Position numbers and translations under genes: made by a program. Positions 1 through 50,063 of a stretch of 64,000 bases of DNA are shown piece after piece (position 1 is the first letter of the stretch; every line of letters starts with the position of its first letter). The notes beneath the pieces were generated by a model, which saw only the letters and a list, made by a program, of their open reading frames with translations, searched no databases and had not been told where the DNA came from. The stretch is from Bimastos eiseni (lineage: Eukaryota > Annelida > Clitellata > Crassiclitellata > Lumbricidae), in contig OY365815.1 in assembly GCA_959347315.1 (NCBI GenBank), forward strand, positions 20,012,803 through 20,076,802, written 5' to 3'.

Positions 1-3000
1 CATAAACGATAAGGAACATTGATTGCCTCCATTTCAGGTTCCGATAAGTTCTCTTACAGAGTCTTCGAGGTTATTGCAAGACAAATGGAATCAATTCCTT
101 TATACCGACATCGGCTGCATTGCGATCGAATGGTGCTTTTTGTATTGCATTATTTCGGCCCATTGTGGTTCATACGATTAGGCGATTATGTGTGACTCTC
201 CATGAGAGCGCTAATCGTAATCTGTAGCTTGTGTGATTTATTTGCAATTAAGGCAAAGACGCCTTAAGCACAGCTCCTGCAGTTTGTGCGTCAGTTCCAC
301 TCAATCGCGATGTAATCTACGTTGGTCGCCTGTTATTATAAATCTCTTCCAAGTAACACACTTATCGAAAGATAAGCGCAAATGCAAATGACACAAATGA
401 GGAAAAATTGCAGACAAGTGAGCGGGAAACGCCAAGGTAAGTACTACAAAGAACATAATGTAATGAAATCGAACATTTATATAGCGTGTTGTAAGCTGAG
501 CGCTCGTCAGAGGTCAGTCGTTCTGGGTTCACTATAAGCATATATATTTATATATATATATATATATAATATATGTATGCATATATAAGCATATATAACA
601 TGGGCTTGTATGCTGCAGTTTTACTAGAGGTTCGCAAATGAGCTGTAGCCTATCGTCTAAGCCTATGACCTCAATGAGCAAAATACGAAAGTCTTCCTAA
701 AGGTCATTGTCTATGAATTCTGTAGAATTACTCTATGGGCCCTATGATGTAGATCACTGCCTGTAGGCCTATGCACATAGACGATAAAGCAGAACATTTA
801 TCATTCTGCACCCATGCAGTTATTTAAGGAAATTCTGTAGCCTGCGATAAGAGCGACAAGTTTACTCATTAGTGTTTATAAAATCAAGAGGTCTAGGCCT
901 ATACACATAGCTCTATTATTTGGCCATGCAGTAGGCCCATATGAGTGGTAGAGAAGGGCTTTTAATTGTGTAGCGGTTGTTATAATTATACTCAAATCTG
1001 GAAAGCTACGTACGGCAGCGTATATTGGGACTCTATCTAGTCTTAACTGGAACCTTTTAAGTCTCCTGTACAAACTCAACGAATTTCCTACACAATCCGA
1101 TGGCATTGTCACCTGTATTACTCTGACAACCGAATTTTAAGGAAAATAGCGAAACGGAAAATGCCGAAATGAATTCAGTCTGCGATAAGTTTGTTGCAAT
1201 CAATCAACGCGTCCTAACATAGTTGTCTATTGTCCTTTCTAAAATGTGTATAAGCTCTTAATCGTTTAAGTTTTATCCATTTTAACTTTTATACATTTCA
1301 TTTATTCATTAACTCTTAGGGTTACCAGGTGTCCGGTATTGAACCGGACAGTCCGGTATTTCGACAAACTGTCCGGTCAGAAATTTCAGACATTACCGGA
1401 CATGGCGGTGTCCGGTAATTTTGTGGAAGATAATTTTAATAATTGTTAAACTAATTGTTAATGACAATAATTAGTTTGGAAATACATGATTTATACCTAT
1501 GAAAAAGTGAAGACTGAAAACATAGATTACGTGGCTGAGACTACACATTCTCTGTGGCTCTTCCTTTTGGAGGCACCTATATATATTAGGCCTATATCGC
1601 AACCATCATTCATGAAAGGACCATGATCTACATGTACGACCCAATTTTCAGCTACAACAGTTAACGAATTTAAGCTGTGAAATATGACGCTGAAGAAAAA
1701 ATACCCTACAGTAAAATTATTGTCTTGTAGATATCTTTAGCTATTTATGCCATAGGCCTACGCATGCGGCGCATGGGGCCCCAAACTGGATTTACCATCA
1801 AAAGGGCGCATTGATGGAGCGACTATCAAAACGGCAATTGAGAGTTCGACAATCAGAAGAGCACGCTAACAATAGGGCGACAATCGAAAAGGCGTGTAAG
1901 TTGGTAATACAAAGATCTCTTGGATTATTTCGAAGCCACTTGGATAATGGTTGGATTGGAAGAACAGCACTACGTGTTACGTGGGCGTGGCAGCACGTTG
2001 TTCAACCGCGAGCCATGGAATGCCCACTATTCTGCGCTACATGATCTTTCCAAACCCAACAACTCAGTCGAAGGTTTGGCAGAGAGAATTTAGTCAACTC
2101 CTTGGACCCTGCTATCCCATAAGTTAGAAATTCATAGACAGTTTGCAGGAAGAACGTGTTAACGAAATTAAGCTTGAGCAGTCCGTTTTCCTGGAAATAT
2201 CACTCTCAGTTAAGAAAACCCTACAAGGAGGTGGCTAAACGTTTCGTCACAATAGTTGACGTTTATCGCAATAGAGCTAATCTAGACTAGCAAAGAGGCA
2301 TCGCTCATAATCTCAACCTAAAATATTTTCAAAATAAGTTTCGGGTGTTACTCTACACTACAGCAATTCAGTAAGAATATTCCCTAAAATGTAAAAATTG
2401 TCATATTATCAGTTTAAGACTTTTCGTATAGGCATAAATGCAAGACTTTTCGTACGTGCTAATTAAAATAGCTTTGTCAGTTGCTTTCGAAGTTTACGTA
2501 TGACAGCCATTGCACGTCGCCATTTCCATTGTCGCCTTTTTGCATGCTTGCTCTTGTTTTAAACATGCGCCCTTTTGATGGTCGTAATTTATACAGGACA
2601 CTAAAAATTATGTAGGCCTGTGCTATGCAGCAGAGGGGAGGGGTCCGAAAATACGCTTTTTGCATACGTAATATATGGATGGACCCCATCCCGCAAGTCC
2701 ATTCTTCTCCACCCCGCAATTCGAACGCCATAGTACGGTAATTTTCTCCAGTCTTTCTTTTCTTCATGCACAAGATCTCCTTCAACCTTTCAATCTGGGC
2801 GTTATTCGTTTCACTCTTCTTCCATTTAATTCACGCTTTTCACTCCATGCAAACTATAAAGGGCGAATTCACTTGGCGGCTTTTTCGATGTGTCTTCTTT
2901 AGTTCTTTTCTGCTGGATTTCCTTGTCAACACAGTTGAACAAACACATACACACAAACACACATACCTCCATCTCTTCCCATAGTAACAAGCAGAACTGT

Positions 3001-3553
3001 TTATACTATATAAAGAACAGATTCCTGTTTCCTCTGAGTTCCCTGTTTGACCCGCAAAATGCAAATAGCAAATCGATTGCGGCACTTGAGGCTTTAGCGT
3101 TGGACGAACTACATAACAAAAACGCGGTCTCTGCGAGTTATTCAATAGAGACAAATAACATCGGATGCAGTAATTCTTGCTGATGTCCGTTATACATCGA
3201 CCGTACGACGGGCGTCATGCAGCTGAAACAATGTACGAAGTCAAGCCCACGAAATGCGTGCCACCTAATCTAGAGTCCTTTCATGCCACCTAACCCAATG
3301 CATGAAATAGGCCTAATAACTAGAAAAAGCATTTCTTCTAAATACGACAAGCGCGCGAATAATTATCCAGAGCACAATAAACGCAGTGCAACGTTTATAA
3401 TTAGTCTAACTGTCCTAGGTACCAAATAAAAGTATTTTAGTTTTACGCATTGACCTAGGCTTATATTTGTAATTTAGGCGTTTATCGTAAGACCCATGGC
3501 TTATTCTAATAAGCACTGATTTTGAACTAGTCTAAGCGACCTCTGAATCAGGG
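1..3553. other. Intergenic DNA, no gene recognised
   Basis: AT-rich, repeat-containing DNA with a TA tract near 547-572 and several AGGCCTA words. Short open frames here have no recognisable domain. Apart from the TGTCCGGTA-rich segment listed separately I see nothing functional. Confidence 0.6.
1318..1425. repeat. TGTCCGGTA-rich segment, possible hAT-type transposon end
   Basis: Starts GGGTTACCAGGTGTCCGGTA and repeats the word GTCCGGT four times plus two complementary ACCGGAC copies within about 100 bases. This resembles subterminal repeat clusters of hAT transposons, whose ends often read CAGGGTTRCCA. I could not locate the other terminus or a target duplication. Confidence 0.35.
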
Positions 3554-3559
3554 ATGTGG

Positions 3560-3793
3560 TCTCGAGACCGCGGTCTTGGTCTTGAGACGGTCTCGAGACC
3601 GGAAAACTGCGGTCTTGGTCTTGGTCCCGAATGCATCGGTCTTGGTCTTGGTCTCGGACCACCCGGTCTTGGTCTTGGTCTTGGTCTCGAATGCATCGGT
3701 CTTGGTCTTGGTCTTGGTCTCGAATGCATCGGTCTTGGTCATGGTCTTGGGCCATCGGTCTTGGTCTTGGTCTTAAAGGAACGGTCTTGGGAT
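3560..3793. repeat. GGTCTTG minisatellite, locus 1
   Basis: Tandem GGTCTT/GGTCTC hexamers grouped in a higher-order unit punctuated by GAATGCATC or GACCACCC and ending GGTCTTAAAGGAACGGTCTTG. Open in several frames on both strands (GLGL, DQDQDR and SWSW repeats), which follows from the hexamer composition rather than from coding. Confidence 0.85.
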
Positions 3794-4176
3794 TGCATTT
3801 GCAACGGAACCTGTCATTTCAAAATTTGCTTTAACAAATTTCAAGGTTTTTTAACAATCTGATAATTATGTGGTCGGTCACGTGTATAGTCACTATTAAC
3901 CTACAATTCCGAGTAGAAGTAGGCCAACATCATTCAAACGGAACGTTTATCTACTTGTCTTAGAGTATTTACCTACGTATCGTATACTGCAGGTAATTTA
4001 TAGTGTGATATTCTCAGGCCGAAGCCAAGGGCTGAACCCGAAAAAGTTCAGACTGGCAGGTAAAACTGTTTCTGGACCATTATTAAGATTGGTATTCTTC
4101 AGCAATAAAATTAATGCTTTAAGCGTGTCATTCCGTTTTAGCGTCTTAATAAATTGAATTGTTTATAAAAAATAGC

Positions 4177-4260
4177 ATCGGTCTTGATCTTGGTCTCGGA
4201 CCATCCGGTCTTGGTCATGGTCTCGGGCCATCGGTCTTGGTCTTAAAGGAACGGTCTTGA
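4177..4260. repeat. GGTCTTG minisatellite, locus 2
   Basis: Shorter array 390 bases beyond locus 1, with the same units, including GGACCATCC, GGGCCATC and the same ending GGTCTTAAAGGAACGGTCTTG. The shared ending shows that the two are copies of one dispersed element and not independent microsatellites. Confidence 0.8.
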
Positions 4261-6560
4261 AATTCCTTCGAATTAGAATGACAATGATATTTTTACTATT
4301 CGAACCTTTGAATGTCCTGTTCTGTTCGAAAGCCCTTTGGGCACAGTGTCTATAGTGCATATATATATATATATATACATATCAGGTACACACGCATATA
4401 ATTACTTGTACATGCATACAAACACGCGCATGCATACATATAAGCCCGTACAGTAAACATGTGCATATATCACACTTGCAAAACATATATAGGCTGCGCT
4501 GCTGATGTCGGAAATGTAGGCATGAGAAAAACTAACGATTCCGACGAAAATTCGCCAGAGGGATATATTAGGGGTTGTAACCTTTGATATTTGACCTAGA
4601 GGCTCACGACAATGACCTTCTGACTAATCCAACCATGTGGTTTACAGTGAGTTCCGATGAAGAGTGAATACTATATATCGGTCGATAAAAAACTGTTATT
4701 TTCACAGACCGAATTTGCACTGAGCACTTGGTATTGAACTCTAAAGCCAGTTCGAAGATTGGTATATGTATATACTGGTTTATATTGTATATATTGGCAT
4801 ATATATACTGTATTTATTAACTTATATAGCGCCGCTAGCATCAGTGCCCCAGTACGACAACCCAAGAGCGGAAAAGGTTTTTAAAGTGTTAAAACGTATT
4901 GATTCAGATCCAGATAATTCATTCTCTGGCGAATAAGACGTTATTTTGCCAGTTTGTAAAAACCGGTTTAAAGTAGGCCATACAAGAAATGCTTTGCTTT
5001 TGTCGACACAGACACAATGTAGCGATCTCACTGAAGCTGCATCAACTTAGCCCAGCAATCAAGCCACAGAATTGAGACAGCGAAAAGTGAGATTAACACA
5101 GTATGTCCCACTCATGTCACCCAAAGAGATCGTATTACTAAAGCATTAAATTGCATTGCACTTCTGGTCACCACAGCTCCACGGAACACAGACTGCAGTG
5201 AAGTCTTATTTACCACGGAGCTTAAGGGCGATTGGTTTTGAGCCAGCAGTTGGTCTTGAGCGATTCGCCTTTGGTGATCAATCTAGCTTAAGCCAACCCT
5301 GATGACCAGTAACCTGATGTAGTGCGAGGCTAGTATAACTCATTCATTGGAGGCTCAGTTACACTGCTCCACCAAATGCTCCATCTATATCCTACTCAGG
5401 CGTCAAATTGGTTTTATACTGTATCAGGAATGTGGATCAGGAAATTAGACACCCACGTCTTTATGGAGTTACAACTGATGAACAACCAAACCAGGGCAAG
5501 TCTCGTGTCTATCTTATTGGAGACAAGGACGCTCAAGTCTTATGGAGGCGCAAGCCTATAGGCATTAGGCATATATATATATATATATATAACTGGCCTT
5601 CAACTGTCATCACTTGTTCAGTAAAACTATACTATCTCTAACGCATTGGCCACTTCACAAGATAAAAGGCCGCCTATCAATCTTTAATATCTTAGCTTCA
5701 GTCAATGACTCCCCAAAACGCGTCATTAAGCACAGTCTCGACTGAGATTAGATTGCGCTGGTGCAAAGCACGGATCGTGAAAACGACCATAAAGAGGACT
5801 ATTGAGGCGGCAGCAACAGCAGCAGTCATATTGAGGTCCTGAGCCTTTAGCAATGACGTTCAATCTGTTGTTCTGCTTTGTGCATCCCATTTACTGGTGA
5901 GCTCACGCAACTGCACAGACAAAATATACTTTGGAATAGATGCAGGTCGACAGGAACGCATCGGGGTTAGGCGCATAGGACTATAGTACGTCGTCCTGTG
6001 TGATATTTGTCTAGTCATGCAGGCATCCGTTGCTTCATGGAGTCCTACGTTCAAGTCAGATAAACCTAAAATAGACTAGATATGAGACTAATCGGAGGCT
6101 GTGCACGCGACCAACTGGCTTCTGATGGAGTGATAGGACGTGGGCAGCGGACGTGTGACTTCTAATCACCCGTCTCTGCTTGGGTTATGTGTGAATCTGT
6201 TTCATGTAGGCCGACACTTACGTGTGTGCACGCGGCTATATTCAATTACACATATGATATTATTGTGTGCAGTCGTGTCTCTTATATTATGTGTAATGTA
6301 AGGGCAATTTAGGGCTACATCGCAACGTCAGTAGAATACTACGTCTACGATGTCTCAAAAACGCTGTCAAATTCAGGATAGGGGCATATATGTCTTAATC
6401 AGTCTTGGTTTCAAGTCCACGCGTTCATTCTAGTAATGCAGCCCACTTCTGACGGACACTCCTCAATCAATCAATCAATGTGAATGAATTTGATTGCACT
6501 TGTCCTAAGACAAATTTGCCAAAATTTGAGAAAGGCGAGAATTCCATGATCGAGGCCACA

Positions 6561-6568
6561 AGGGAACT

Positions 6569-6650
<82 letters not shown>

Positions 6651-6658
6651 AGTTCCCT
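6561..6658. repeat. Perfect fold-back around a long (TA)n tract
   Basis: Arms AGGGAACTGACT (6561-6572) and its exact reverse complement (6647-6658) enclose a pure TA tract of about 74 bases, so the whole 98 bases form one perfect palindrome. Confidence 0.9.
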
Positions 6659-8056
6659 GACTATGTCGACAATTTCTGTTACACTTTATTTTCTGGCTTC
6701 TTATGTAGTAGGCCTAATGCGCTCTCGTGTGGTTCTTGTAGGCCCTATGTAAATATTCATATACATACAGGCATTCCTTTTTGAAGCTGCCCTCACTGTG
6801 TGAGAATTTACTTAAAAATCATTGATATAAAAATAAGTCGCTAAAGTGGTGTACGCCTCCACCTCGCACCCGACCAGTTTCGAGATCTCGGACTCCGTCG
6901 CAGAGTTGGCATAAAAAGATGATCCGAGGATTCACTGCCCTGGTCTTGTAGCCACTCCACCGTCGCACGGTCTATGTGCACGTCGTTCAGGTCGACGCCC
7001 AGAAGCCATCTGCGTCGACCTGCCAATCAGCCGCAGAGGCTGGTTCCCTGCTCCCCATGGCTTATTAGATTTCGTCTGGACTGACTGATCAAACGAACGG
7101 AGAGTGATTGTTGATTCTCGTTTCACTTCAGACCGACAGTCGACCGATGATGACTTGCGCTGCATAATGATAGAGGCGCCGCAGTGAAGTAGACAGATTA
7201 GACAGATTAGAATTGCACCAGAGGATATATATATATTATATATATTATATATATATATATATTATATATATAAATAAAAGCATTTAGGGCAATTCCAATC
7301 TATATAGTATATGCAATGTATGCATAATTATGTGATATTTAGATATTCCTATTTATGTACCGTATTCCACATGATGCCCGTTCTTCTGTATGTGTTGGAC
7401 CAGTCTTCTAGATTTCATTGAGATGCTTTTCATCCACACAGCAAAATTTATGTGTTGTACGTTGTTACAGTCGCCCTATGAAAGTTTTTATTTGACACTA
7501 TAAGCTATCAATCCCTTATTCGTACACCGTCAGTAATCTAAATACCTATTCATCATCATCAAATCTCCACTGATGTTTCCGTCCCAGTAACTAAAACGAT
7601 CAATTGGATCTCTTTTTATCGACGGTCAACGTGATTAAAGTAGTCCTTCTGCTCGTATTAAGGAAGCAAAAATCCCCTCTGTTTAAAAAACAGTTTTAAA
7701 ATTATCTGCGCTGACAGGGTGGCAGCGTGTGTGTGTGCGCGCGCGCGCGTAATTCATCATAGAAGTATATTGCAACTAACAGTTCTATAGAAACGGCCGT
7801 ACTCACAATTACAATTACAATCAACTGAAGACCTATTCAAAATGGCTTGAAGTAAACTCATCCTTTACAAGACTATGACTATAGGCCTATATATGTATAC
7901 GGCGCGGATCTACTGTCAAGAACTATTTTCCCTATACGTTCATAGAGACTTAATAGATGCTCAGACTGTCAAACAGAATGGCTTTCCTAACTGTAGTTAT
8001 AATCATTAAGATCCATACTCTATAGCGACAGTGTTCAATATACAAAGCAGCCTCGG

Positions 8057-8602
8057 ATAGGCTGCTCAGCGCTTACACTCGCAGGAGCATTTGCTCGTAA
8101 CGCATATACCTGGACCCATCTGTTATTGCAACGCATAACACGTGTTGTCTGTCCGCGCGTTTCAACAAATATACTGATCTTCTATAATCTTCTGTCATTC
8201 CAAAGTCATATCGTATATAATTAGGTCAAAGGACAGACGATCAAACCGCAAAGACTTTTTGTTGTTGATTATTTTGACAAGACCGTCCCATATCAAGGAT
8301 AATTTGATGTCGCCCTCCTCATTTCTCCAGCCGTGGGACTGTCAATTTGTGTCAAACTCTAAACAGTGGCGGAGCCGCAAAGACAAAAGATGCAGCTTAT
8401 ATATAGGCGCTATGGTGAGTAATAAACAGTTTGAAAAGGGTACGTTTTAACTGAGTAAAAAATGAGCCGATGACAGAAGATCAATATATTTGTTGAAACG
8501 CGCGGACAGACAACACGTGTTGTGCGTTGCAATAACAGATGGGTCCAGGTATATGCGTTACGAGCAAATGCTCCTGCGTGTGTAAGCGCTGAGCAACCTA
8601 TA
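8057..8602. repeat. Long inverted repeat, about 140-bp arms
   Basis: Arm 8057-8197 is matched in reverse complement by 8471-8602 with only a few substitutions and one roughly 10-base insertion in the left arm (TATAATCTTC); the spacer is about 273 bases. Arms contain the palindrome AACACGTGTT and TTTCAACAAATATA. The spacer has no recognisable gene. It resembles a fold-back or non-autonomous DNA element, or a recent inverted duplication. Confidence 0.85.
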
Positions 8603-10595
8603 CAAGAGCCATGTTCCAACCGACGTTCATGATGATATATGTATACTCTCGCCAGTGATATACATTATACAATGTATACTATACATGTATGTGGGCTGTA
8701 CCTTTCCTGCGGGAATGGTCGGCATCAGGAACCAATTGTGGCGGAGACATTCATCTTTTGCATGCAGCAGTCAATACTTAGACAGGATAAACGGTTCCCA
8801 CTCCAGGCCTTGCTGCATAAACAGCTCAGGTAGCTGTTGGCGAATTAGCCCGTTTTCTTGGACGTGAAGGCGATGTTTAACAGTCTAAAATCCAACACAT
8901 AGCGGCCACATATGTCCTTAGATAAAGCTATAGCGACTGCAGTGAACTGAAATGTTAACCCTTTGTCTTCTACCTTCATCGTCGTTTTAAATGCCACGCA
9001 TACACACAGGTATGCTCTACTTTCGTCGATTTTCCTCTTAGGCTGTTTAACATGGGTCTACGGCTATCAGTCAATTCAAAACATTGATTTGTGCCAAGTC
9101 TGCCAACGCAGAGAATTTCTCAGAACGGAAACGCCTATAGGCTTATAAAACACTCATATGCAGATTTGTCCACGGGTCGGGTCGATTGACTTCTGGGACT
9201 TTCTGTCAAATAATCGGACGCCTTTTAAGTGCCCGATTCTTTTACTCCTGTGCAAGGACTGAACAAGCTTGAGATTAAAATCCATTACATATGCAAAGAT
9301 CGCTTTATGCGAACCGCGATCAACATCGGACCTTAGTTATAATAAAATAAATTGAATATGGCTAAGGAATTAGCGCGAAAACTAGGAGCAACACCGAATG
9401 TGTTCCTTTTAACACCGAACTCGGCTCAAGCTGTCGTATGGAATAATCTCACATGAATTTAAGAAACAACAAAAGGTCAAAGGATTACAAGCGTACGAGT
9501 TATCTAAAGATGCAACGCTGGAACATGCGGACTAGACTCTTTCGTACCTACTAATATCCGGAATTCTTTTGCATATATTTATGAAGAAAGTAAATTTATG
9601 CTAAAATAAATGGAATAAACGAAGGGTATCGATACTGATACGTTCTCACAAATCAATATTATTATCATATATTGCGGTCTGACTGTGTTGCGTTTTTACG
9701 ATATTAGAATTTGACACTGAAAAATATTAGTAAAATTAGTAATTAGTAATAGGCCTAAAGGCGGATCGGATTGGGTCGGGTCATGCACGTCATGAGTCGG
9801 ATATTTGGCTTCAAAAGTCTGGTCGTGTCGGGTCCATTTTCGATGGGTCGGGTTGGGTCGGGTCATGGAAATTGAAATATGAATGCACACCAGAGAATTA
9901 AGCATGTGATGACAGATATAGGAAAACATGTCTATTGAACAATATATGGAGAGAGAAGTAACACACGCGTATGCATCCACTCCAGTCTATTATTAGCTAG
10001 CACGTGTGGATATAAACTACTGCAATTTCGGGTCTAGGTGACAATTCACATTCGGGTTCCAGCATTCATCTTGCGGATGACTTTGTCATCCGCTGGTGTG
10101 GAATTGACAAAATATGACGGTCGTTTCTTGCAGATCGATATAGCGTATAACTCATTCATCATACAGACCATTCGATGATATGACTAACCAGGGCACAATA
10201 ACAATAATTCATTGCCATCGATCAATTCACAAGATCTCGGCGCCATCGGAATAACATGAGCGAAATGTCAGTCAATCAACCAATATATTATTTTATAAAG
10301 AGACAATTCGTCACTCATTCAGTCGCCACAGCACAGATCAACAGTGCATGATCTCTTTGCACTCTCTTTTACCGTCATCATTATCATCGCTATCGCCGTC
10401 ATCCTTATCATAATTGTCAATGTTATCGTCTTCATCATTAGGCCTAAGCATCGTCATTACCATGAGCAGGGCTGTAAGTTTTTCGCGGTCGAAAATTCAA
10501 CAACTCGCGACCAATTCGCGGTTAATAACACAGAATTCGCAGTTAAACGTGTAACTCAAGAAATAAGTCAATTACTGAGTATAATCAACGACCAT

Positions 10596-10820
10596 TCATG
10601 CAGATAATGGTTGGCGCCGTTGCTGCGATGTCTGCTTTGCAAGAGCAGATTGCAATTCTTCCTTTTTCGCCTTTCTACTCTCAACATTCTGTGTCTTGTC
10701 CCTAAGATTAAAATCGACGGGCACATTGCATGTTCTGCAAAAGAGTGGATCGCCGCTCGCCTGAAACGTACCGGGCTCAAACTGAACGTCTTCCTCTAGC
10801 CACCTATTGTTTTCGCACAA
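10596..10820 (-). pseudogene. Transposase-like zinc-finger remnant (BED/CGGBP1-like)
   Basis: A 74-codon frame encodes FEPGTFQASGDPLFCRTCNV followed by RDKTQNVESRKAKKEEL. The LFCxxCN segment followed by a basic S-K-A-K-K helix resembles the single zinc finger (LxCxxCxxxxDHxxxxxxxxHLxSxxH) of hAT-linked and CGGBP1-like proteins. The expected His residues are missing, so it should not bind zinc normally. It is flanked by TTCGCGG-containing repeats (10490-10520 and 10897-10935) and a CAGGGCTG word at 10468, suggesting a decayed hAT-type element. Confidence is limited because the match is short. Confidence 0.35.
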
Positions 10821-12024
10821 AGATGTCGTAACTAATATTTTAGTACCTTCGCCTTTCCCACGTCAAAAAGAGAAGCAGCACGAAAAAACTGTCAAATTCG
10901 CGGCCATTAGCGGCAAAACGCTAAAATTCGCGGTATCATCTAAACTTGTAGGGCGCTCTTTTGTCAGGCGCTCTTTTAACGAGTCATGGGTTAAAGGGGT
11001 GCGCGACCGAGGTACAAGAAAATCAACTCGTCAGCAGAGCGTAGAGGCGAGAGGAATTAGTAGAGAATGGTTTACTCATCAAGTCGCAGGGATATTAGGT
11101 ACTTAACCATTAGCACTGAGGAACAACACAATGGCGTGCAGCTGAGGAAGTGAATTCGGGTTCCGTATCCTCCGTAATTGGTCCTTCGGTTGTACACATA
11201 GTAACAGGAACGGGTCACAACGGATAAGTATTCAGTAAACGTCAAGGCATTATCAAGTGTTAGGTCACTTACACAGGAGGACATGGTCAACTGGGAATAA
11301 TGAGGTCATCAATAATTGGTGACCAATTAATTATCAGTTTCTGATGGTCCCCGAGCGTTTAGGAGGAGGTAAACCATTTTGATGTGCTTCATCTGAAATT
11401 ATATGACCTCAAATTCCTAAACAGTGTTGCTGACGAATATATATGTACATCTATATACCATATATCATTGAATATATATTAATGATTTAATTTAGATAGG
11501 TTTGCGCAGATCAAAATTGATACGTTTGATCACAGATACGCTTAATCAGCAGCTCATTTAATTTTTAAATTTTCAAAAATATTGTTGTGCCACATATAGT
11601 TCAGATGGATGAGGCGCCTAAACAAGATCGTATTGCTATCTCTACCGAGCCTTTGCTGCTTATGGCGACCGAATGCATGCAGTCATGAACGCATACACAG
11701 GGATATCGCTGGTAGTTTGAAAATTCGTTTTGAATGAGAATTAGGTTCTGATCTATAAGCCACACTGCGTAGTGCATGCGTAAGCTCAATTGCAGCAGAG
11801 GCCGATGATGGATGAATCTGCTGCTGCTGCTGCTTCAGAGATTATAATGATGGCCTCATATCCATCACCCCACGCACTCATACGTTTAGACCACATGCGC
11901 TCAAAACACACACAGAGATGTTATAGGACATAAATGCTCTCTCTGAGTCTCTACTTCTCTCTCCCTCTCTTCCCCTCTCTCTTCTTAATGAATATATGTA
12001 AGGTTAATGCATGCACACACACAC

Positions 12025-12076: not shown

Positions 12077-13383
12077 ATTCGCTAGCGCGCTTGAATAATC
12101 TGACGATTGTGGTTCAAGCTAGGGCCTACGTGTGACGCCCCTATAGAGTTGTCTCGCGTCTCAGATTCATTAACCCTATAACCCCCAAATTCGTTGACCT
12201 TGCGATCGCAATTACCGCAATAAATAATAAAGTTAACAGTTGAGGAAAAAATTATAAATAATTATTCACATCTATTGTTTTCGTAGTCCAACGCTGCCCG
12301 TGCAAGACTAACTATAGACGTGAATTACACGCGAGGGTCTGATTGGCTGGAGAACAGCTGGCGATCGTGTCATCGATGACCCCAACATTGATGTGTCGGC
12401 GTGTTTCAATATCGGCGATTGAAGTGGATAAATGGTGGCGCATGACCTCTCGTGGTCATTGCATTTTTGATGTTTTTTTGTGTTCGACAACATTGGCCCG
12501 CATGCATGTGTATACAGCCACGGCCTGGTGGGGGTGTGTGGGGCAGCAGAAGCGCGTCTGGGTGCGGTGATGAACCAACGGATTCGTCAACGATATAAAA
12601 AAACAGTGATCATCACGATTCACATATGTAGGTCTACATTCAAACGTGCTGCCTCGAATATTGCCGCTTTGTCCATCTGAGCGCAATTTGGTCGAGAGAC
12701 GCCCTAGGAGAGAAACAGCATTGACAGGCCATGGAAGATTGGAATGACCTTGAATTGACCCTCGCTATGAAGTTAGCAGAGTGTCTCACTCTCCGTATAT
12801 AGGCTGAAAGTTGCAAAGTGCAACCGTCATCTGCAAAATGATGTATACACAGTCAGCGAGTAATGCTGGATGCATTGTACTTATAACTTATCCGAACTGT
12901 GAACGTAACACGACCTGACGCCCTAGGCTCAAACATATCGATCATAAAATTAGCACACACTCGGCTTCGCATCAGCCAAGGTTTTGTAGTAGATAGATAT
13001 CAAATTTCCATTGCCGTTGGCATCCAAACTCAGTCACATAGAGATTCGGAAATAGATGTATTTAAAATACTACATTTTCCTAATAGACCAGACACTTCGG
13101 ATTGGCGATTGGTATATTGGATTAAACGGCTCTAAAAAAGACTGCTTGGTGTTTATAAAATAGATCCACGTTCTTGAGATAAACAACACTAGCCTTAAGT
13201 TGTGATACATTGAATTTAGCCTAATTAAAAATTGTGAAGTGGTAGCTACAAATATATTCCATCCCCAAACACTTCACCACTTTAAACTGTTTTATGCAGG
13301 ATAGTAGGCAATATAGGCTAAATATAGGCTACTTTTGGTTACTACACATGCAATCATTTCAAATACACATGTGATACATTGAT

Positions 13384-13513
13384 CATTCATTCAAAACACA
13401 CATGTACTATCATTCATTCAAACACACATGTACTATCATTCATTCAAACACACATGTACTATCATTCATTCAAACACACATGTACTATCATTCATTCAAA
13501 CACACATGTACTG
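13384..13513. repeat. 26-bp tandem repeat, about five units
   Basis: Unit CACATGTACTATCATTCATT plus CAAACA, nearly identical in successive copies; first and last units are divergent. No open frame of note. Confidence 0.85.
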
Positions 13514-14576: not shown

Positions 14577-15971
14577 TTACTTCTCAATCATTTGAATAAC
14601 TTCGCAAGGGGGTTTCATCTCTCCACCGCCACCTCCACCGCCGCCGTTCTCCTGCGCTCGCTGCTGCTGCTGCTCATGCTGCAGATGTTCGTTCTGCGTG
14701 CGGCAGGAGTCTCCTCTCACCAGCCGAGCGAACATCTGTCGAAACGTCCTATTGATGGCACAGTAGAGAAGAAAGTTGGACGAGAACTTGATCGCCTGCA
14801 TTAGATTCGTTATGTTGACGGCCCAGAGGAATGCCTCATTTCCTCTCGTCCACACAACTCCTCCAGTCGTACCACGTGACCGCTGTCCGTCGAGGAACTT
14901 GATGAACTCCAGCAGCATCGAAGGACAGACGAGGACGATGAAGCAGAAAACGACGGCTAGCAATGTCAAGGTCAATCGCTTGGTTGACGTCTTTTCTGAC
15001 TCAGTTGTAACGTTGACTGAGCGTGATCGACTGCTTCCGCTGCTTACACTGGCTCCCATTCCGCTGCCTCCTCGCTGAACGACGGTGTTTGACGACTTGT
15101 GGTAGAGCTCGCGGATGAGCAGTGCGTTGCTCGTCAGTATGAGCACAAGCGGAGTGAAAGTGCCGACGGTGAACCATACGATATGGTGCAAGCTCTCGAA
15201 GCCAGGAGTGATGTAATGATACTTCTCTACGAAGCAGCAAGTCGTTGCGTTCCAACACGGCTTGCATGTGATCGAGTACCGCAGGAAGAGCGGGATGTTC
15301 AACAGAGCGGAACCGACAAAAACGAGCAGGTGAGCAACGAGCGTCCTGCGAACCCGGATCAACGAAGCGGCGCGGAACGGGTGACAGACAGCGATGTACC
15401 TCTCTACGGAAACGAGCATTATAAGCCAGGTGCTCGTGAAGAGAAATACGTTGAGAAAGGCCACATTGTGCGTGATGAAGTAGAATCTGAAGAGCGTCAT
15501 CGGGCCCGCTGGTGCCCTGCCTCTCTTGACGAACGAGTAAGGGAACCCGACGATACAGAATAGGAGATCGGATGCGGCCAGAGTCTTGAGACCCATGACG
15601 GCCGATCGCTCCATTTGGGTCGTCTGCCGTCGGTGGGGGTAGAGACGGCGACTCGTCAACAGGAATAGGTTGGCGACGTTGCCCAGAATTCCCAATCCGA
15701 AGATAACTGGAATGACGAACTGCTCCAGGTGGTACTTGACCTCGTTGCGATAGGCAGCGCTAAGCGAAGGATGCGAGTAGTTGAGGGCAGGCAGCTCCAG
15801 GGCGTCTGCATCGAATGGAAATGGACGACCATACGAGCCGTAGGCGTACGTCGTCCACGTGAGATCGGACAGGTCAAGCACACCCTCCACCGCCTTCTCC
15901 CCGTGGTGGACCCCATCGCCCGTAGCCTGGTCCGATCCTTCGACCGACGACGACGACGATTGCTCATCCAT
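14577..15971 (-). CDS. Rhodopsin-family (class A) neuropeptide-type GPCR, single exon
   Basis: Intact 464-aa reading frame encoding a seven-transmembrane receptor of the plasma membrane, most like FMRFamide/peptide receptors. Visible marks: extracellular N-terminus of about 80 aa with a glycosylation site at N64; TM1 about 83-107 with GNVAN; TM2 with LAASDLL (D135); TM3 ending in ERY (190-192), the G-protein switch; TM4 about 209-230; TM5 about 263-289 with P274; Ser-rich third loop about 290-330; TM6 with P350; TM7 about 381-404 with N399-F-L-L-Y instead of NPxxY, a variant familiar from FMRFamide-type receptors. The tail is Gln- and Gly-rich with a run of eight Gly. An in-frame TGA lies immediately 5' of the chosen ATG, which fixes the start on unspliced DNA. 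Odd points: no Cys at the top of TM3, no Trp in TM4, no Trp in the TM6 motif, and four Cys in extracellular loop 2. The ligand cannot be told from sequence. Confidence 0.9.
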   Translation of the reverse strand: MDEQSSSSSVEGSDQATGDGVHHGEKAVEGVLDLSDLTWTTYAYGSYGRPFPFDADALELPALNYSHPSLSAAYRNEVKYHLEQFVIPVIFGLGILGNVANLFLLTSRRLYPHRRQTTQMERSAVMGLKTLAASDLLFCIVGFPYSFVKRGRAPAGPMTLFRFYFITHNVAFLNVFLFTSTWLIMLVSVERYIAVCHPFRAASLIRVRRTLVAHLLVFVGSALLNIPLFLRYSITCKPCWNATTCCFVEKYHYITPGFESLHHIVWFTVGTFTPLVLILTSNALLIRELYHKSSNTVVQRGGSGMGASVSSGSSRSRSVNVTTESEKTSTKRLTLTLLAVVFCFIVLVCPSMLLEFIKFLDGQRSRGTTGGVVWTRGNEAFLWAVNITNLMQAIKFSSNFLLYCAINRTFRQMFARLVRGDSCRTQNEHLQHEQQQQRAQENGGGGGGGGEMKPPCEVIQMIEK

Positions 15972-22627: not shown

Positions 22628-23737
22628 GGAGAGGTGGGGGCAAGTTTGTTGCGGGGCAAGTTTAATTTGTGCTATATAATTATAATGCGTGGCAAGAATT
22701 TCATAAGCAGTCTAACAAGAAGTTTATCGATGAGCTGACATGCTCAGCGATAAATTTCTTGTTCCTTTTATTCTTTCGTTCAATTGAGGCCATGTGCTAC
22801 TACGTTGCTTTATTTTCGTTTGTTGCTTAAAAGTAGGTTGTCCTATTTACTGCTTAAAATATTTCATTGTTATAAAATATCGTATATCTTAATCCACATA
22901 AATGCAAAAATAAAGGAGCATGGGTTATTTTGTTAAGCATTCATTGCGCTTTATTAGGTCTACTGGTATACCTTGTTTATCCAAATCGCGTTTTGCAAAC
23001 AGTGACCACGAGATTTTGTACTGTGGACCTGTTGGGGCAAGTTGGCTGGAGGCAAGTTGGTGGATGCAGCCAACTTGCCCCCAAAGGTCAGCCAACTTGC
23101 ACCACAATATTCCTAAAGGCAATTATCGATGTGTCTAGTAATTGTTGCATTAAACTGATGTCATCGTAATTGTAAACTCGAAACTTCTAAAGCTACAAAC
23201 GCGGCGTCGCCGTAACCAGCCTCTTCACAAGCGCTTGATCAAAACAAAATCGACAGGCAGAGGTCAAGATTCAGATAGTCAGGCAGGCAGACAGGCAGTC
23301 AGACGGTGTTTTGAGCCACTATATATATAATTGGCATGCATTGCGATTTTTTAGAAATTGCCATTAGTTTTTAATCTTTTTATTGGACATCTTTATTGAA
23401 ATTAAATGCCTTTAATCTAAATCAATTTGAGTCAAGTGTAACGCATTCGCTTTCCACTGTTACAAATCGGATTTCTGCGTATGATTTGTATTGCCACTAT
23501 CTTGTCCCAAGCAGGCAAGCAACCAATTTGCCTCAGAGCAGAGGCAAATTGGTTGACTTTCAGAATATTTTTGAGATCGTTTTTTGTAAACGTATACAAC
23601 ACAGTGTGATGCGTGAATTTATATAGCTATAGTGTACCCGTTAGCTGTGCTCTGAGATAAAAATTATTTTGTTAGCTTTATCGTTGACGATCACGTGCGA
23701 TGAAACTTATTTATCCGTCAACTTGCCCCACCTCCTC
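22628..23737. mobile_element. Candidate non-autonomous DNA element with GAGGTGGGGCAAGTT ends
   Basis: Left end GAGGTGGGGGCAAGTT (22631-22646) is matched in inverted orientation by the right end (23720-23737; reverse complement GAGGAGGTGGGGCAAGTT). Inside, the word GCAAGTTGG and its complement recur in a cluster at 23034-23100. Two internal hairpins are present: 22714-22735/22742-22763 (22-base arms, few mismatches) and 23520-23534/23541-23555 (15-base perfect arms). There is no transposase frame. I could not find a convincing target duplication. Confidence 0.55.
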
Positions 23738-23754
23738 TGTTTATGCGATTAAGG

Positions 23755-23937
23755 GCTAGACGACACTTGATTTGTATAGACGACACTTGATTTGTATACA
23801 TGCACAGGCCCGCTTTCAATTTCTATCAACGGAACATGAAGTCGACTAATTAAATTGCAATGTCGTCTGTCGTCCGAGATATGGAATATGTAAACCCAGG
23901 GCAGAAATAAAAGATAAAAGTCTGCTGCTAATGGCAG
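23755..23937 (+). repeat. Dispersed element, copy lacking tetranucleotide tract
   Basis: Contains a tandem 22-base duplication (GACGACACTTGATTTGTATA), then CCCGCTTTCAATTTCTATCA, ACGGAACATGAAGT, then CCGAGATATGGAATAT, CCCAGGGCAGAAA and AAAAGTCTGCT. The same blocks occur in reverse order and complement at 26640-26770. Confidence 0.75.
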
Positions 23938-24074
23938 TTGCAATAATATATAAGCTTGGTGTCACAAGAATGATAATGCACATGAACATTGACTGTTGTG
24001 TGAATAGACACTATTGTTACAATTAAAAAATATTTATCTAAACAGAGACGACTCCGTCTAGATGATTGGAACTT

Positions 24075-24210
24075 AAAAAATGCCTCCAATTTCAGTAATT
24101 TCAGATAGGGGATATTTTCTGAGTCTTGGGGGGAAATATCTTGCCTTCCTGACACCTTGGACCGCGGGTTTGCATCCATCACTCAGAGGGGGAGGGATAA
24201 ACGCCCCTGC
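24075..24210 (+). repeat. Interspersed repeat, copy A
   Basis: Shares ATGCCTCCAATTTCAG, ATATCTTGCCTTCCTGACAC and CCATCACTCAGAGGGG, in this order, with the reverse complement of 45408-45552. Probably a SINE or MITE family member; termini not resolved. Confidence 0.7.
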
Positions 24211-24245
24211 AGAGAAGACATAATAAAACGCGAAACTAAAATTAG

Positions 24246-24246
<1 letters not shown>

Positions 24247-24327
<81 letters not shown>

Positions 24328-24328
24328 T
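24247..24328. repeat. (CT)n-(CA)n compound microsatellite
   Basis: About 42 bases of CT followed directly by about 38 bases of CA with one interruption. Confidence 0.95.
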
Positions 24329-25160
24329 CTGTCTGCCTGTATCTCTCTAGCTCTTTCTTGCCAGTCCCGACGGCGAAAGAATTCAGACTGACTCAACTCC
24401 TCCCAAGGTCTCGTATTAAAAGTTCTTCCTACGATCCCGTAGACCATGTGACTCTCTGTTTGGCAAACTCGGGTTGGATGCAGTGACAGCTATCTGTTAA
24501 CCTAAATCAGCCAATGAAGATACAAAAAACAATCATAATTATGAATCAATTTGTAACTGTAGGCCTAGTCCAGACGACGCCACCTAATTTGGAATCATTA
24601 CCAATTGCGATAATGTCAAGTGTGGACAAACATATTATTTATTACCATTATGATAATAATGCATGAATCATTACTGTATATGGTTGTGATTTTTTTATTC
24701 GTCCTGGGTATACGAAGAATCCATCAGACTCTAAGAAACTATGCTGTTGTGTGCCATCAAACTGCATGAAAGCTATGGATAGACTAAATTCTTGTGCGCG
24801 GTGGGTTATTATTATCATTGCTGTTGTTCCTGTTGTGTTTGTTACACAAAGCGCAAATTACCTGGCCCTACTTAAATACAAAGCGTTAGCGATAGTAACT
24901 ATCGCCAGTGATAAGCTGTTGTGTTTTTATACTGTATAGCATTGCGCGCCAGTCTCCAGAAACGTCTTCAGAGGACCGACTTGTCAGAATGACTGGATTC
25001 CCGATACTGCAGACAATTTATGACCGTCAAGCCAGACTTCCCTCTCATAGGTCGGCTTTTTTAAAGATTGGACGCAACGGGTTAGAGAGAGACAATGTTA
25101 TGGCTCTTTTCCCATCTGTTTGATGACTAGGCGGAAAGAAGGTGAATAAATAATTGCCTA

Positions 25161-26187
25161 GATGGATGGATGGATGGATGGATGGATGGATGGATGGATG
25201 GATGGATGGATGGATGGATGGATGGATGGATGGATGGATGGATGGATGGATGGATGGATGGATGGATGGATGGATGGATGGATGGATGGATGGATGGATG
25301 GATGGATGGATGGATGGATGGATGGATGGATGGATGGATGGATGGATGGATGGATGGATGGATGGATGGATGGATGGATGGATGGATGGATGGATGGATG
25401 GATGGATGGATGGATGGATGGATGGATGGATGGATGGATGGATGGATGGATGGATGGATGGATGGATGGATGGATGGATGGATGGATGGATGGATGGATG
25501 GATGGATGGATGGATGGATGGATGGATGGATGGATGGATGGATGGATGGATGGATGGATGGATGGATGGATGGATGGATGGATGGATGGATGGATGGATG
25601 GATGGATGGATGGATGGATGGATGGATGGATGGATGGATGGATGGATGGATGGATGGATGGATGGATGGATGGATGGATGGATGGATGGATGGATGGATG
25701 GATGGATGGATGGATGGATGGATGGATGGATGGATGGATGGATGGATGGATGGATGGATGGATGGATGGATGGATGGATGGATGGATGGATGGATGGATG
25801 GATGGATGGATGGATGGATGGATGGATGGATGGATGGATGGATGGATGGATGGATGGATGGATGGATGGATGGATGGATGGATGGATGGATGGATGGATG
25901 GATGGATGGATGGATGGATGGATGGATGGATGGATGGATGGATGGATGGATGGATGGATGGATGGATGGATGGATGGATGGATGGATGGATGGATGGATG
26001 GATGGATGGATGGATGGATGGATGGATGGATGGATGGATGGATGGATGGATGGATGGATGGATGGATGGATGGATGGATGGATGGATGGATGGATGGATG
26101 GATGGATGGATGGATGGATGGATGGATGGATGGATGGATGGATGGATGGATGGATGGATGGATGGATGGATGGATGGATGGATGGAT
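25161..26187. repeat. Uninterrupted (GATG)n tetranucleotide tract, about 257 units
   Basis: 1,027 bases of perfect GATG with no interruption that I can find. Because three units make twelve bases without a stop, every plus-strand frame reads (WMDG)n and the minus strand reads (HPSI)n; the resulting open frames of 340-430 codons are artefacts of the repeat. The left flank, AAGAAGGTGAATAAATAATTG, recurs in inverted form at 26820-26842 beside a short CATC/GTCC tract. Confidence 0.97.
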
Positions 26188-26639
26188 TAACAGACGGACT
26201 GACCGACGGGTGGATGGATTGGAACGACGGCTGATGCAAAGGGATCTGTGACTGAAAGTCGTTTCGACGCCTTTTACGACCGAAATAAACCACGAATTGA
26301 ATCGGTCTTTGCGTAATAATTGAATGACCCCGAAAGACAATAACAGAGCATCGAAATGTCTTTAAATTCACGTTCTTATGGCCCAATAAAACAACGCATG
26401 CTCCTCTGATTCTTAGACGCATTTACTGTTGTATATACAGTGTTATTTTTCTCTATAATAGCATTCCAATGTAGCGCTCCTCCGTACAAATGCGTTCTAT
26501 AACAGGCTAATGAGATTTATAATTTCAAATACGAACACGCTTAGTTAAATGCCAACCGATTGGAATTATAATTAACAAAATCCTGTAACTTGTGTATTAG
26601 AATTAGAATTCGTTGTTTTCTAATCGACTGGAACCATTA

Positions 26640-26850
26640 GCAGACTTTTATCCTTTGTTTCTGCCCTGGGTTTAAATATTCCATATCTCGGACTACAGAC
26701 GACAATAAATATTCAACTTCATGTTCCGTTGATAGAAATTGAAAGCGGGCGCGTATACAAACAAGTGTCGCCGTCCGTCCGTCCGTCCATCCATCATCCA
26801 TCCATCCATCCATCTAATCAATTATTTATTCACCTTCTCTCCATCTAGTA
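26640..26850 (-). repeat. Dispersed element, inverted copy with short CATC/GTCC tract
   Basis: Read on the minus strand: GGTGAATAAATAATTG, TAGATGGATGG, a short (GATG)n, (GGAC)n, GACACTTG, TTTGTATAC, CCCGCTTTCAATTTCTATCA, CGGAACATGAAGT, CCGAGATATGGAATAT, GGGCAGAAA. It joins the block found left of the giant tract (25132-25165) to the blocks of 23755-23937, and so shows that both belong to a single family. Confidence 0.75.
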
Positions 26851-28570
26851 ATCAAAGAGTTAGCTGAAAATTGGAATTCAATTAGAATTCGCAAAATCCT
26901 AATCAATTCAACTAAGACCTACTGTAGCGACTGCTATTCGACTATAGCTAATCGATATTCTAAGTTTAATTGCAAATCGACTAGAATTAGAATTAACAAC
27001 TGAAGTGTACTCCTCAATTAGAATTAGACTTGGCAAAATCTAGAAAGTAATCGATTACAATCAGAATGAGCTGTTTTACCAATCGATTAATTGCAAATCG
27101 GTTGTAATCTAATCGATTAATTACCCATCTCTGCCTATATATCTCTTCACCCTCCTCTGCCTTCACACCCCTTCCCATTCAATCGATTGCACCGTACTTA
27201 CTTCTTCCAGTTTTCATCCTCCACTATTCTAATCCGCTCTCCATTCCTCTATACGTTCCACTCCTCTGCTCCGCTGTCTAAAATACTCAGAAATGTCAAC
27301 TGTGCACTCTTCCACAAACTATCAGACTGTATACTTAAACGGGAACGTAACACTTAAGGCACTGCATTGAAATCTAGCGTAGTTGACTTGATCTAATCTC
27401 TCAAAAATGCATACTACTCTACCGTAAAACTGCACAGTTACTTTAAGAAAACAGACGATTTAAAAATATTATAGATATGCTTCTATCTCTGCCTGCCTTC
27501 CTTAACTCTTTCTCTGTCTCTACCTCTGTATTTGTTCCTGTCTCTTCCCCTTTCCCTGTCGCATCATTCGTCTCTTTCTCTTCCTCTTCCTCTGTCTCTA
27601 TCCCTGTCAGTTCCTCTTTCTGTCTCCTCCCTCAGTCTATTCTCATTGCACTGTTGACCGTTTGATCTGGACATCCGTCTGTCTGCTGACAACCCAAAGA
27701 CATCTGAAAGCGTCGTCGTCCATCCATCATTGCCATTCGCATCAACCGATCGAGACAGACATCTCGCGCTGCTTTTCTCACGCCACATAATCCACCAAAG
27801 CATCGAAGACAAAACACAGCCAGAGTCGACAGATATAACGAAGGAAATTAGCGTCGTTCACCCTGTTTTACCACCACCACCCCTACCACCATCTAGCCAT
27901 ATAGGGCTTTTATGCCTAGAAATGGCCCTGTATTCCTATTGAATGGACTAGATGCAGATCTTGCTGGTCGAAAGACCTTCAAATGATGACGGGTGCAAAA
28001 CAATAGTGCACCAACATTCGATTTCTATTACCCCACAACTACCTCAAGTCCCAACTGAAATGACGTTTCAGTGCATTGTAGGCCTATACGAATTAGGCGA
28101 AATTGCATTGCGCACTCGCAAAAGAAAAGAAGTTTCGTTCGTCAGCAGCAAATTTGCTTTCGTTTGTAACCGGTCCTCTGCATGCCTATAATTGGTGTAG
28201 ATAAATGACACATTGACCGTCTCTACCAGTACCAGAACGAATGTGACCACAGTAAATAGAGTGGTTTACAGTGACATATGGTATATGTATTTGACAGCTT
28301 CTCTGCTACTGTCTGCTTATGTACATGTATACATTGGAGTCTTATGCGACGTTCTTGCTCGTTTAAGCATCGTAGGAGGGGCTACGGCCACTTAAGACAT
28401 CAGCAACTTCAAGTGGCTGGTGAATATTTATGGATCAAATGCCGTGAGTTCAGCTGATTAACAATACATTTATGAGGGTGCTTTACATTTCCAACAGCTC
28501 TCTGTTCGATTGGAAGAAAGTGACTGCTGTGATTGCAATTTATGGTATCGATACTCCGAAGGGACTATCT

Positions 28571-30482: not shown

Positions 30483-31230
30483 AATAGGGGCCGCCTACTA
30501 TCTAAATTGACCTCTAATAAAACTCATAGGCCTATGCTATGCAGTTTGCATGAATATTAATGTAAACGTTTATATATATATGCATATATATATATAATTT
30601 TATATGGCTATGTGTGGGAGAATGGATGGACGACAGGGTACAACGAGGAAGTAAATGTCGATCCTTAGCGCAGGCCGAGCGGAATGGAAGAAAATTGTCA
30701 AAACACAAGCATTGAACATCTACGGGCGATGAGCACATGGAGCGACGGATGGATGGATGGATATATATGGCTATATATTGGCCCGGAGCAGGACGTTTTG
30801 GCGCCACCGTTTTGGCGCATAGCTGTTTTGGCGCAGATATCCGATACAATACATAATGTAACACGAAGCATGATCGATGATAATATTATGGTAACCTGGG
30901 AACTGTACATGTTTATAGGCCTACCTTACGTATGCATTTATGTACATATGGGAGCCCTTTTAATTATATAAATGTAGGTCACCTGTGTGTATTATGTATG
31001 CGTGTATGTATGTATTTAATGTATGTATGTGTGCCTTTAAGCTATATGTGTACACACATTCGCATAAGCATGTATGTAGGCCAAGTTATGTAGGTCTATG
31101 TACACCTGTATATGACCACGCATGTTATTGTACAAGCTTATGTAGGGGCACTTTATACTATGCATTTTGGCTGGTACGATTGTATGCATACATATGTGTA
31201 TTTGTCATTTGTGTGCTTGTGTATCTTAAT

Positions 31231-34829: not shown

Positions 34830-35029
34830 NNNNNNNNNNNNNNNNNNNNNNNNNNNNNNNNNNNNNNNNNNNNNNNNNNNNNNNNNNNNNNNNNNNNNNN
34901 NNNNNNNNNNNNNNNNNNNNNNNNNNNNNNNNNNNNNNNNNNNNNNNNNNNNNNNNNNNNNNNNNNNNNNNNNNNNNNNNNNNNNNNNNNNNNNNNNNNN
35001 NNNNNNNNNNNNNNNNNNNNNNNNNNNNN
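34830..35029. other. Assembly gap of 200 N
   Basis: Exactly 200 N, a size normally used as a placeholder for an unknown distance. It lies close to where sequence character changes, so linkage of the left and right halves depends on this join. Confidence 0.99.
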
Positions 35030-45407: not shown

Positions 45408-45552
45408 GGTCCGGGCGTCAATCCCCTCTGAGTGATGGAGGCAAACCCCCTACGGATCCAAGTGTCAGGAAGGCAAGATATTCCCCCTAAGACTAAAAAA
45501 GTTATCCCCCCTACCTGAAATTGGAGGCATTTGCCTCCGAACATCCCTCCCT
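45408..45552 (-). repeat. Interspersed repeat, copy B
   Basis: Reverse complement matches 24075-24210 over about 130 bases (GATATTCCCCCT, CTTCCTGACACTTGG, CCATCACTCAGAGGGG on the minus strand). Confidence 0.7.
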
Positions 45553-47985: not shown

Positions 47986-48337
47986 TGATTGGTTAATTCT
48001 TTTTGATTTATTTATGATGAATAATGGTGTGTCGTCCTTAATGTCCTTAATTTCCATCTCGCTGTGATATGGTGCTAAATGTGTTCAGTTAAAAATATTT
48101 AAAATTCCATGGAGCCTGTGAGCCATGCCATGATCTTGCAGACTGTCTGTCAGACTGAGTGTCAGTGAAAGAGTAAGACTGTCGGCGGTGCTAAATTGCC
48201 ATAACCTGAGGCATGGGAAGCGTTGGGATCTTTCATACATGTGGCAGCATTCCAGTCAACTAATCAGTGAATTGATAGATCAATCAACATCTGTCAGTGA
48301 GTCAGGCAGTGTCAGTCGTTCAGTGTAGGTAGGGATG

Positions 48338-48444
48338 TCGGTCAGTCATTAAGTCGGTCGGTCATTAAGTCGGTCGGTCATTAAGTCGGTCGGTCATTAA
48401 GTCGGTCGGTCATTAAGTCGATCGGTCATTAAGTCGGTCGGTCA
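48338..48444. repeat. 16-bp tandem repeat, about 6.5 units
   Basis: Unit CATTAAGTCGGTCGGT; unusually CpG-containing for this CpG-poor half. Confidence 0.9.
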
Positions 48445-48840: not shown

Positions 48841-50063
48841 AATAGGACAGGTAATTTGACACAGAGATGTCTGGGTCATCAAAACCTTATCTGTTACCCT
48901 AAGTGATACCAGCTGGTCTACATAATAAGCTACACCTCTCTTTGGCAGTGCTTCACTTTCTTCGGCTTCTCCATTTTACTTTCACAACTGGATTGGGTTC
49001 TTCTTGTATCAGATAATCTTCTTAATGGTTGGTCTCGTGCACAGTGGATGTTATGGAATTAGTCATTAAAATCCTATTCCTGTGCACAAGGGATGATATT
49101 AAATGGGTCATTTAGGTCATTTATATTATCTAGGCCATGAGCATGAGGCTGGGTTAAGCCCCGGAATGGATGTGTTTTTGTCCCATATACGGTTAACTGA
49201 ACATTTCCAAGAGTCCGTAAAGGAGAGAAGAGAGAATTAACCAAAGGAAATTATGTTTGGCTGGTCGAGCCATGTGGGTCACGTGATTGGCGGGCAGTGC
49301 CTGCTGTAGGTTCCACTGATAATGTTGCAAGTGAATTATTGCTTATGCTGCAGTCATTCCCAGTTGCCATTCCAGTCCTTGGCTGAAAGTTGCAGTGAGA
49401 ACAGGGACCATGAACAGCTACTAGTCTGACGATGAGGACAACGTTCCTTCTAGACTAAACACCGTGCAGTGTTCATTGCATGAAATACAAAGAGCAGCTA
49501 GAAGGACTCACTGTAAATACTGTGTAAGATTACAAGAAAGCAGATGGTTGTAAGGAAAGTTTTAGTTAACAGATGGTTGTTCGCATAGGATGAGGATGAT
49601 GATGGCTTTGGTCACACATATATGTGCAGCATCTTCTTATGTGGAAAGGAGATGAATAGTGGCTTTGATTTCTGAAATATTTTGAAAGTAAGAACAATTA
49701 TACATTTTTATAAATCATTTCTCCGTCCATCTGTTTTTATTGCTTTCATCATTTGGTCTGTTTGCATTTCTGCTCATCTGTGATTTGACTCTCTTACAGT
49801 CTGTCTCTGTCTGTCTGTCTGTCTTTCAATCATCTGTCAGTCAGAATGCCATGTTTCTCTGTGTAGCCAATAGCCATCACTAATAGTAAGTGTTTCTCTT
49901 TTGATCTTTGAGTCAGCTTATATGTCTGTTTTAAACTATTTGTGTCTTCTGGCTTGCATTATCATATATGTGATTGTTTATAATTTTAAACACTCTATCG
50001 TGTTTGTTTGTATATCTTCGGTTCTGCAGAGTTGAACTGGCTATTGTTTTTGTGTGTTTTTAG

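Follow-up and report, generated by a model that had tools for sequence, protein, structure and literature searches.

The window, by which is meant the whole 64,000-nucleotide stretch of DNA analysed, is eukaryotic and probably lophotrochozoan. A GPCR frame at 14577-15971 on the minus strand contains the Pfam 7tm_1 domain; among its 41 protein matches, the best with a name belongs to the annelid Capitella teleta (44% identity, 76% query coverage), one without a name reaches 68%, and the weaker named matches are arthropod FMRFamide receptors. Further along, the Shroom ASD2 domain is recognised in the plus-strand frames 54301-54663 and 55554-55850, and the large plus-strand frame 49990-51777 has one unnamed relative at 68%; the large frame and the two ASD2 frames downstream of it may belong to one gene, a probable Shroom-like gene at 49990-55850. 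The GATG tract that is the main subject here sits between the GPCR frame and the Shroom-like frames. Rfam at gathering thresholds and ARAGORN returned nothing in the window.

Several other repeats are present. At 6561-6658 two 49-nt arms adjoin without a spacer to form a perfect palindrome, in which AGGGAACTGAC and its complement enclose (TA)n. An inverted repeat with 138-nt arms (8052-8189 and 8469-8606; 94% complementary, 279 nt apart) has the look of a MITE or foldback element, although this is a guess. Near-perfect minisatellites are found at 13382-13512 (26 bp x 5.0, 99% matches) and at 48337-48444 (16 bp x 6.8, 96% matches, unit GTCGGTCGGTCATTAA).

The GATG tract as assembled

The tract occupies positions 25161-26187 on the plus strand and consists of 1,027 bp of perfect period-4 GATG sequence, equivalent to 256.75 units, as determined by both TRF and an exact scan; TRF reports 100% matches, 0 indels and a score of 2054. 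The longest perfect tracts after it with a unit of 1-6 bp in the whole window are a TA tract of 76 bp and a CT tract of 43 bp. With its head-to-tail units in this size range and a length far beyond chance expectation it is an expanded microsatellite, and chance is not an issue for its length. The earlier note had described about 257 perfect units over 1,027 bases, far longer than the other microsatellites of the window; TRF and the exact scan bear out the first statement, the length being that of the assembly, and the 76-bp runner-up bears out the second. As far as this assembly goes, the perfect microsatellite is real and very long.

The tract is open in all six frames and is covered by six ORFs of 342-438 aa; a GATG repeat has no stop codon whichever frame is read, so this is not evidence for a gene, and the ORFs were rejected as coding sequence. 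Folding with ViennaRNA with G-quadruplexes allowed gives weak two-layer quadruplexes for (GGAU)n, at about -1.4 kcal/mol per four units. No indication of a function for the tract or for the modules described below was found in this analysis.

Exact (GATG)x20 is absent from the viral contigs searched and present in seven stretches of prokaryote genome contigs, where the longest perfect run is 167 bp; one of the seven (L001) is cut by the stretch edge. When the HPSI frame was used as a protein query, 7975 candidates were scored and 1541 matches returned; among the best 120 of these 1541, the longest perfect HPSI run is 11 residues, a length reached in 19. So uniform an upper limit seems to reflect the database or its ranking, and the search was therefore left aside as evidence of rarity. 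Together with the prokaryote and viral scans, it says little on how rare such a tract is in animals.

Flanking modules and tract edges

Three related copies of sequence bordering the tract lie within 23400-27300. Module A flanks the giant tract on the left, at 25107-25156 (plus strand), and ends in GGTGAATAAATAATTG; it aligns with 26870-26819 of a second copy on the minus strand with 43 identical positions, 7 mismatches and 2 gap columns. The second copy carries two modules, and its minus-strand order at 26639-26870 is module A (26870-26819), a short tract (26814-26771) and module B (26770-26639). The short tract, read on the minus strand, begins with five perfect GATG units (26795-26814), followed by a unit minus one base, one GATG and four GACG units adjoining module B. 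Module B is also found alone at 23781-23926 (plus strand), with neither tract nor module A; it aligns with its counterpart in the two-module copy with 124 identical positions, 8 mismatches and 14 gap columns, and at its tract-side end it runs into a tandem duplication of 20 bp (23757-23798). Neither alignment score was reached in any of 1000 shuffles of one partner that preserved dinucleotides, the compared stretches being tract-free except for two bases at one end. BLAST of 23400-27300 with the tract masked, at E up to 1e-3, found no further copies of A or B in the window and no match between the two modules; exact module A and B patterns had no match in viral contigs. No gene was seen in the dispersed repeat that carries A and B.

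The two flanking similarities claimed in the earlier note, namely that an inverted copy also has the sequence to the left of the giant tract and that the other side of this copy recurs in a tractless piece, are upheld by these alignments. The same note read the copies as one element in three states, with no tract, a short tract and a huge tract, and this was confirmed in part: the giant tract does occupy the same position of the repeat as the few-unit tract, but the "no tract" state is a fragment that also lacks module A, and the giant-tract copy has no module B behind it. Since A and B do not match each other, the giant-tract and B-only copies are fragments, and a pre-tract state is not shown; truncation at the tract edge, with loss of the tract and module A, suffices to produce the B-only piece, which is thus uninformative on the time before the tract. 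As judged from the alignments, the three states are one two-module copy and two fragments, each broken off at the tract edge or close to it. A simple inverted duplication of the region was also considered and is ruled out by the module order, as the plus strand carries B and then A with the tract while the minus strand carries A, tract and B, and a single inversion cannot yield both.

Other repeated sequence is interspersed here. One copy of a second dispersed repeat (24078-24191 and 45423-45532; 79% identical over 119 columns, on opposite strands) lies between modules B and A. Sequence rich in AATTAGAATT/AATCGATT is found on both sides of the two-module copy at 26545-27086, with 71-73% identity, as if the two-module copy were inside another repeat.

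The homology of the two tracts is better evidenced by their common edges than by the three states. At the left junction both A-bearing copies show AATAAATAATTG, then two bases that differ between them, and TA ahead of the GATG units. At the far end both carry GACNGACNGACNGAC, a pattern found at four places in the 64-kb window, two of which are these copies; the variant zone there reads GACGGACGGACGGACGG in the two-module copy and GACGGACTGACCGACGG in the copy with the giant tract. To its right the giant tract passes into a degenerate GACN zone (GACGGACTGACCGAC at 26193-26207) that resembles the GACG block of the short copy and is not mentioned in the earlier note; the edge at 26188-26233, whose outer limit was set by eye, is taken as the counterpart of that block. 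The tract thus holds a fixed position within a dispersed repeat in more than one copy, these being two A-bearing copies only.

Runs of five GAYN units also occur away from the modules, at 30744-30763 and 54610-54629. The former, a short GACG(GATG)n run and the only one of the two that was compared with the region, gives weak matches, the best to the short tract (E 0.003) and a second at E 0.009 that runs into module B (49 columns, 67%); it is not counted as a fourth copy, but may be a very old one.

An alternative to a single element is that A and B are independent repeats lying beside, or inserting at, GATG/GACG microsatellites, the two-module copy being a juxtaposition. Each module is indeed found without the other, both are broken at the tract edge, and elements that target microsatellites are described in guayule and rice (PMC5907723). 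The common junction and the same-end variant zone in both A-bearing copies nevertheless fit descent from one arrangement. In a comparison that covers three copies from one 3-kb region, independent repeats are considered a possible but less likely explanation.

The edges also bear on the assembly itself. It is conceivable that the true allele is shorter, longer or interrupted, through inflation or collapse, and that the perfect consensus was produced by the assembler or polisher. A tract of 1,027 bp is short relative to present long reads, its flanks beyond module A and the variant zone are single-copy in the window at E 1e-3, and a sharp edge with degenerate variant units looks biological; an artefact is consequently regarded as unlikely, despite the difficulty of counting perfect repeats and the presence in the window of one gap, at 34830-35029, whose size of exactly 200 N suggests a scaffolded assembly. 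Strong length mosaicism within one individual is moreover reported from reads of the repeat of myotonic dystrophy type 2 (DM2; PMC9462847), which would favour a true allele that differs from the assembled one.

Origin and age of the tract

The best explanation, with a probability of roughly two in three, is that a dispersed element brought in a microsatellite, which expanded at this one locus. The starting point would be a short compound GATG/GACG microsatellite between modules A and B of a dispersed repeat; copies of this repeat would have dispersed, some of them cut short at the microsatellite or close to it. For the copy at 25107-26233 it is proposed that the pure GATG portion grew to about 257 units, through replication slippage and/or through large steps of break repair or unequal exchange, between which the sequence does not distinguish, and that the GACN variant units at the other edge stayed in place as a fixed end. 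We infer the unity of modules A and B in one mobile element, the timing of the expansion after dispersal and its mechanism from this arrangement. Against the expansion reading, there is one two-module copy only, short GATG-type runs occur away from the modules as well, and the giant tract is not followed by module B, which leaves module A and the variant zone as the basis for its descent from a two-module copy.

The modules differ at 8 of 132 ungapped sites for B and at 7 of 50 for A, yet the tract is uninterrupted, which suggests that it grew or was homogenised after the copies had split. The earlier note took the perfect purity as a sign of very recent expansion. The tract is uninterrupted, as stated, but the argument for recency is weak: the 95% upper bound on the age of an uninterrupted 1,027-bp tract is about 0.3 to 3 million time units for substitution rates assumed to lie between 1e-8 and 1e-9 per site, the unit being generations or years according to the rate. 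Purity gives a loose age bound only, given that expansion or conversion can itself erase interruptions.

As a special case of an expanded element-carried microsatellite, the element could be a non-autonomous Helentron (DINE-1/HINE) whose block-A microsatellite has expanded. DINE-1 is described as having a variable-length GTCY-rich microsatellite in one block (PMC2374699), and the microsatellites of oyster HINEs are described as mostly 4-nt, several being GTCY, GTCC or GTCK (PMC7492417). The plus strand of the two-module copy reads (CCGT)n and then (CCAT)n between the modules, and an 18-bp CCGT repeat (26771-26788) adjoins module B, so that a GTCY-type microsatellite is present in one terminal block. 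A subterminal inverted repeat of 11-13 bp, however, was not found in the two-module copy, the ends of which are set by similarity only. The longest exact inverted repeat is 8 bp, which was reached by 67 of 300 letter shuffles, and the best 11-, 12- and 13-mers have 2, 3 and 3 mismatches, as good a result being given by 33, 57 and 41 of 60 letter shuffles, respectively. Neither was a conserved 3' hairpin found; the best of six folds has a z of -2.14 (6 of 200 shuffles as good), but its counterpart in the giant-tract copy has a z of -0.16 (78 of 200 as good). Membership in HINE/DINE-1 was rejected on the inverted-repeat search with letter shuffles and on the folding: lacking subterminal inverted repeats and a conserved hairpin, the element is not filed as a HINE, and a Helentron origin of the tract is held to be improbable.

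A broader extension of the element-carried expansion is a lophotrochozoan repeat family in which the internal GATG/GACG microsatellite repeatedly runs to kilobase length, with purity and same-end variants recording the direction of growth. This is a speculation of low probability; if true, a single genome would contain numerous natural equivalents of the Alu-seeded CCTG expansion discussed below, none of them pathogenic.

Comparison with known systems

The tract is probably element-seeded, which would place it in a known class of phenomenon and make it ordinary in kind. No similar giant tract recognisable as this element appears among the literature matches listed from open PMC papers. On its own the tract changes no concept, as element-seeded giant microsatellites are already known; nonetheless, with a few-unit relative nearby at the corresponding site of the element, a perfect kilobase tract offers a practical natural setting in which to ask what drives element-seeded expansion.

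Simple-repeat arrays far longer than this one have been assembled, with maize TAG arrays reported at up to 235 kb (PMC10335936). In common with DINE-1/HINE, the element is a geneless dispersed repeat with a tetranucleotide microsatellite between two modules, and the unit is partly common to both (GTCC); it differs in having no subTIR or conserved hairpin. Oyster HINE microsatellites are described as short and eroded (PMC7492417), whereas the tract here is of kilobase length and perfect. The (GTCY)n-carrying MITEs of Lepidoptera, as named in a cited title, would likewise be geneless dispersed repeats with a tetranucleotide microsatellite. Microsatellites seeded by LINEs in squamates are similarly attached to a dispersed repeat; as reported (PMC6050309), the squamate tract stands at the LINE 3' end, while here copy-shared sequence lies on both sides of the short tract.

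The closest precedent is the AluSx-derived CCTG expansion in CNBP/ZNF9 that underlies DM2. This repeat is reported to have arisen from an AluSx insertion and to range from 75 to 11,000 units (PMC3378579), and its expanded alleles are described as either pure or with variant blocks at one end (PMC9462847). Both systems would therefore be element-seeded tetranucleotide tracts of hundreds to thousands of units, pure or with one-end variants (PMC3378579, PMC9462847). They differ in unit, host and element, the DM2 seed being described as the poly(A) tail of its element; and while instability and disease are documented for DM2, the GATG tract is known here from one assembled sequence.
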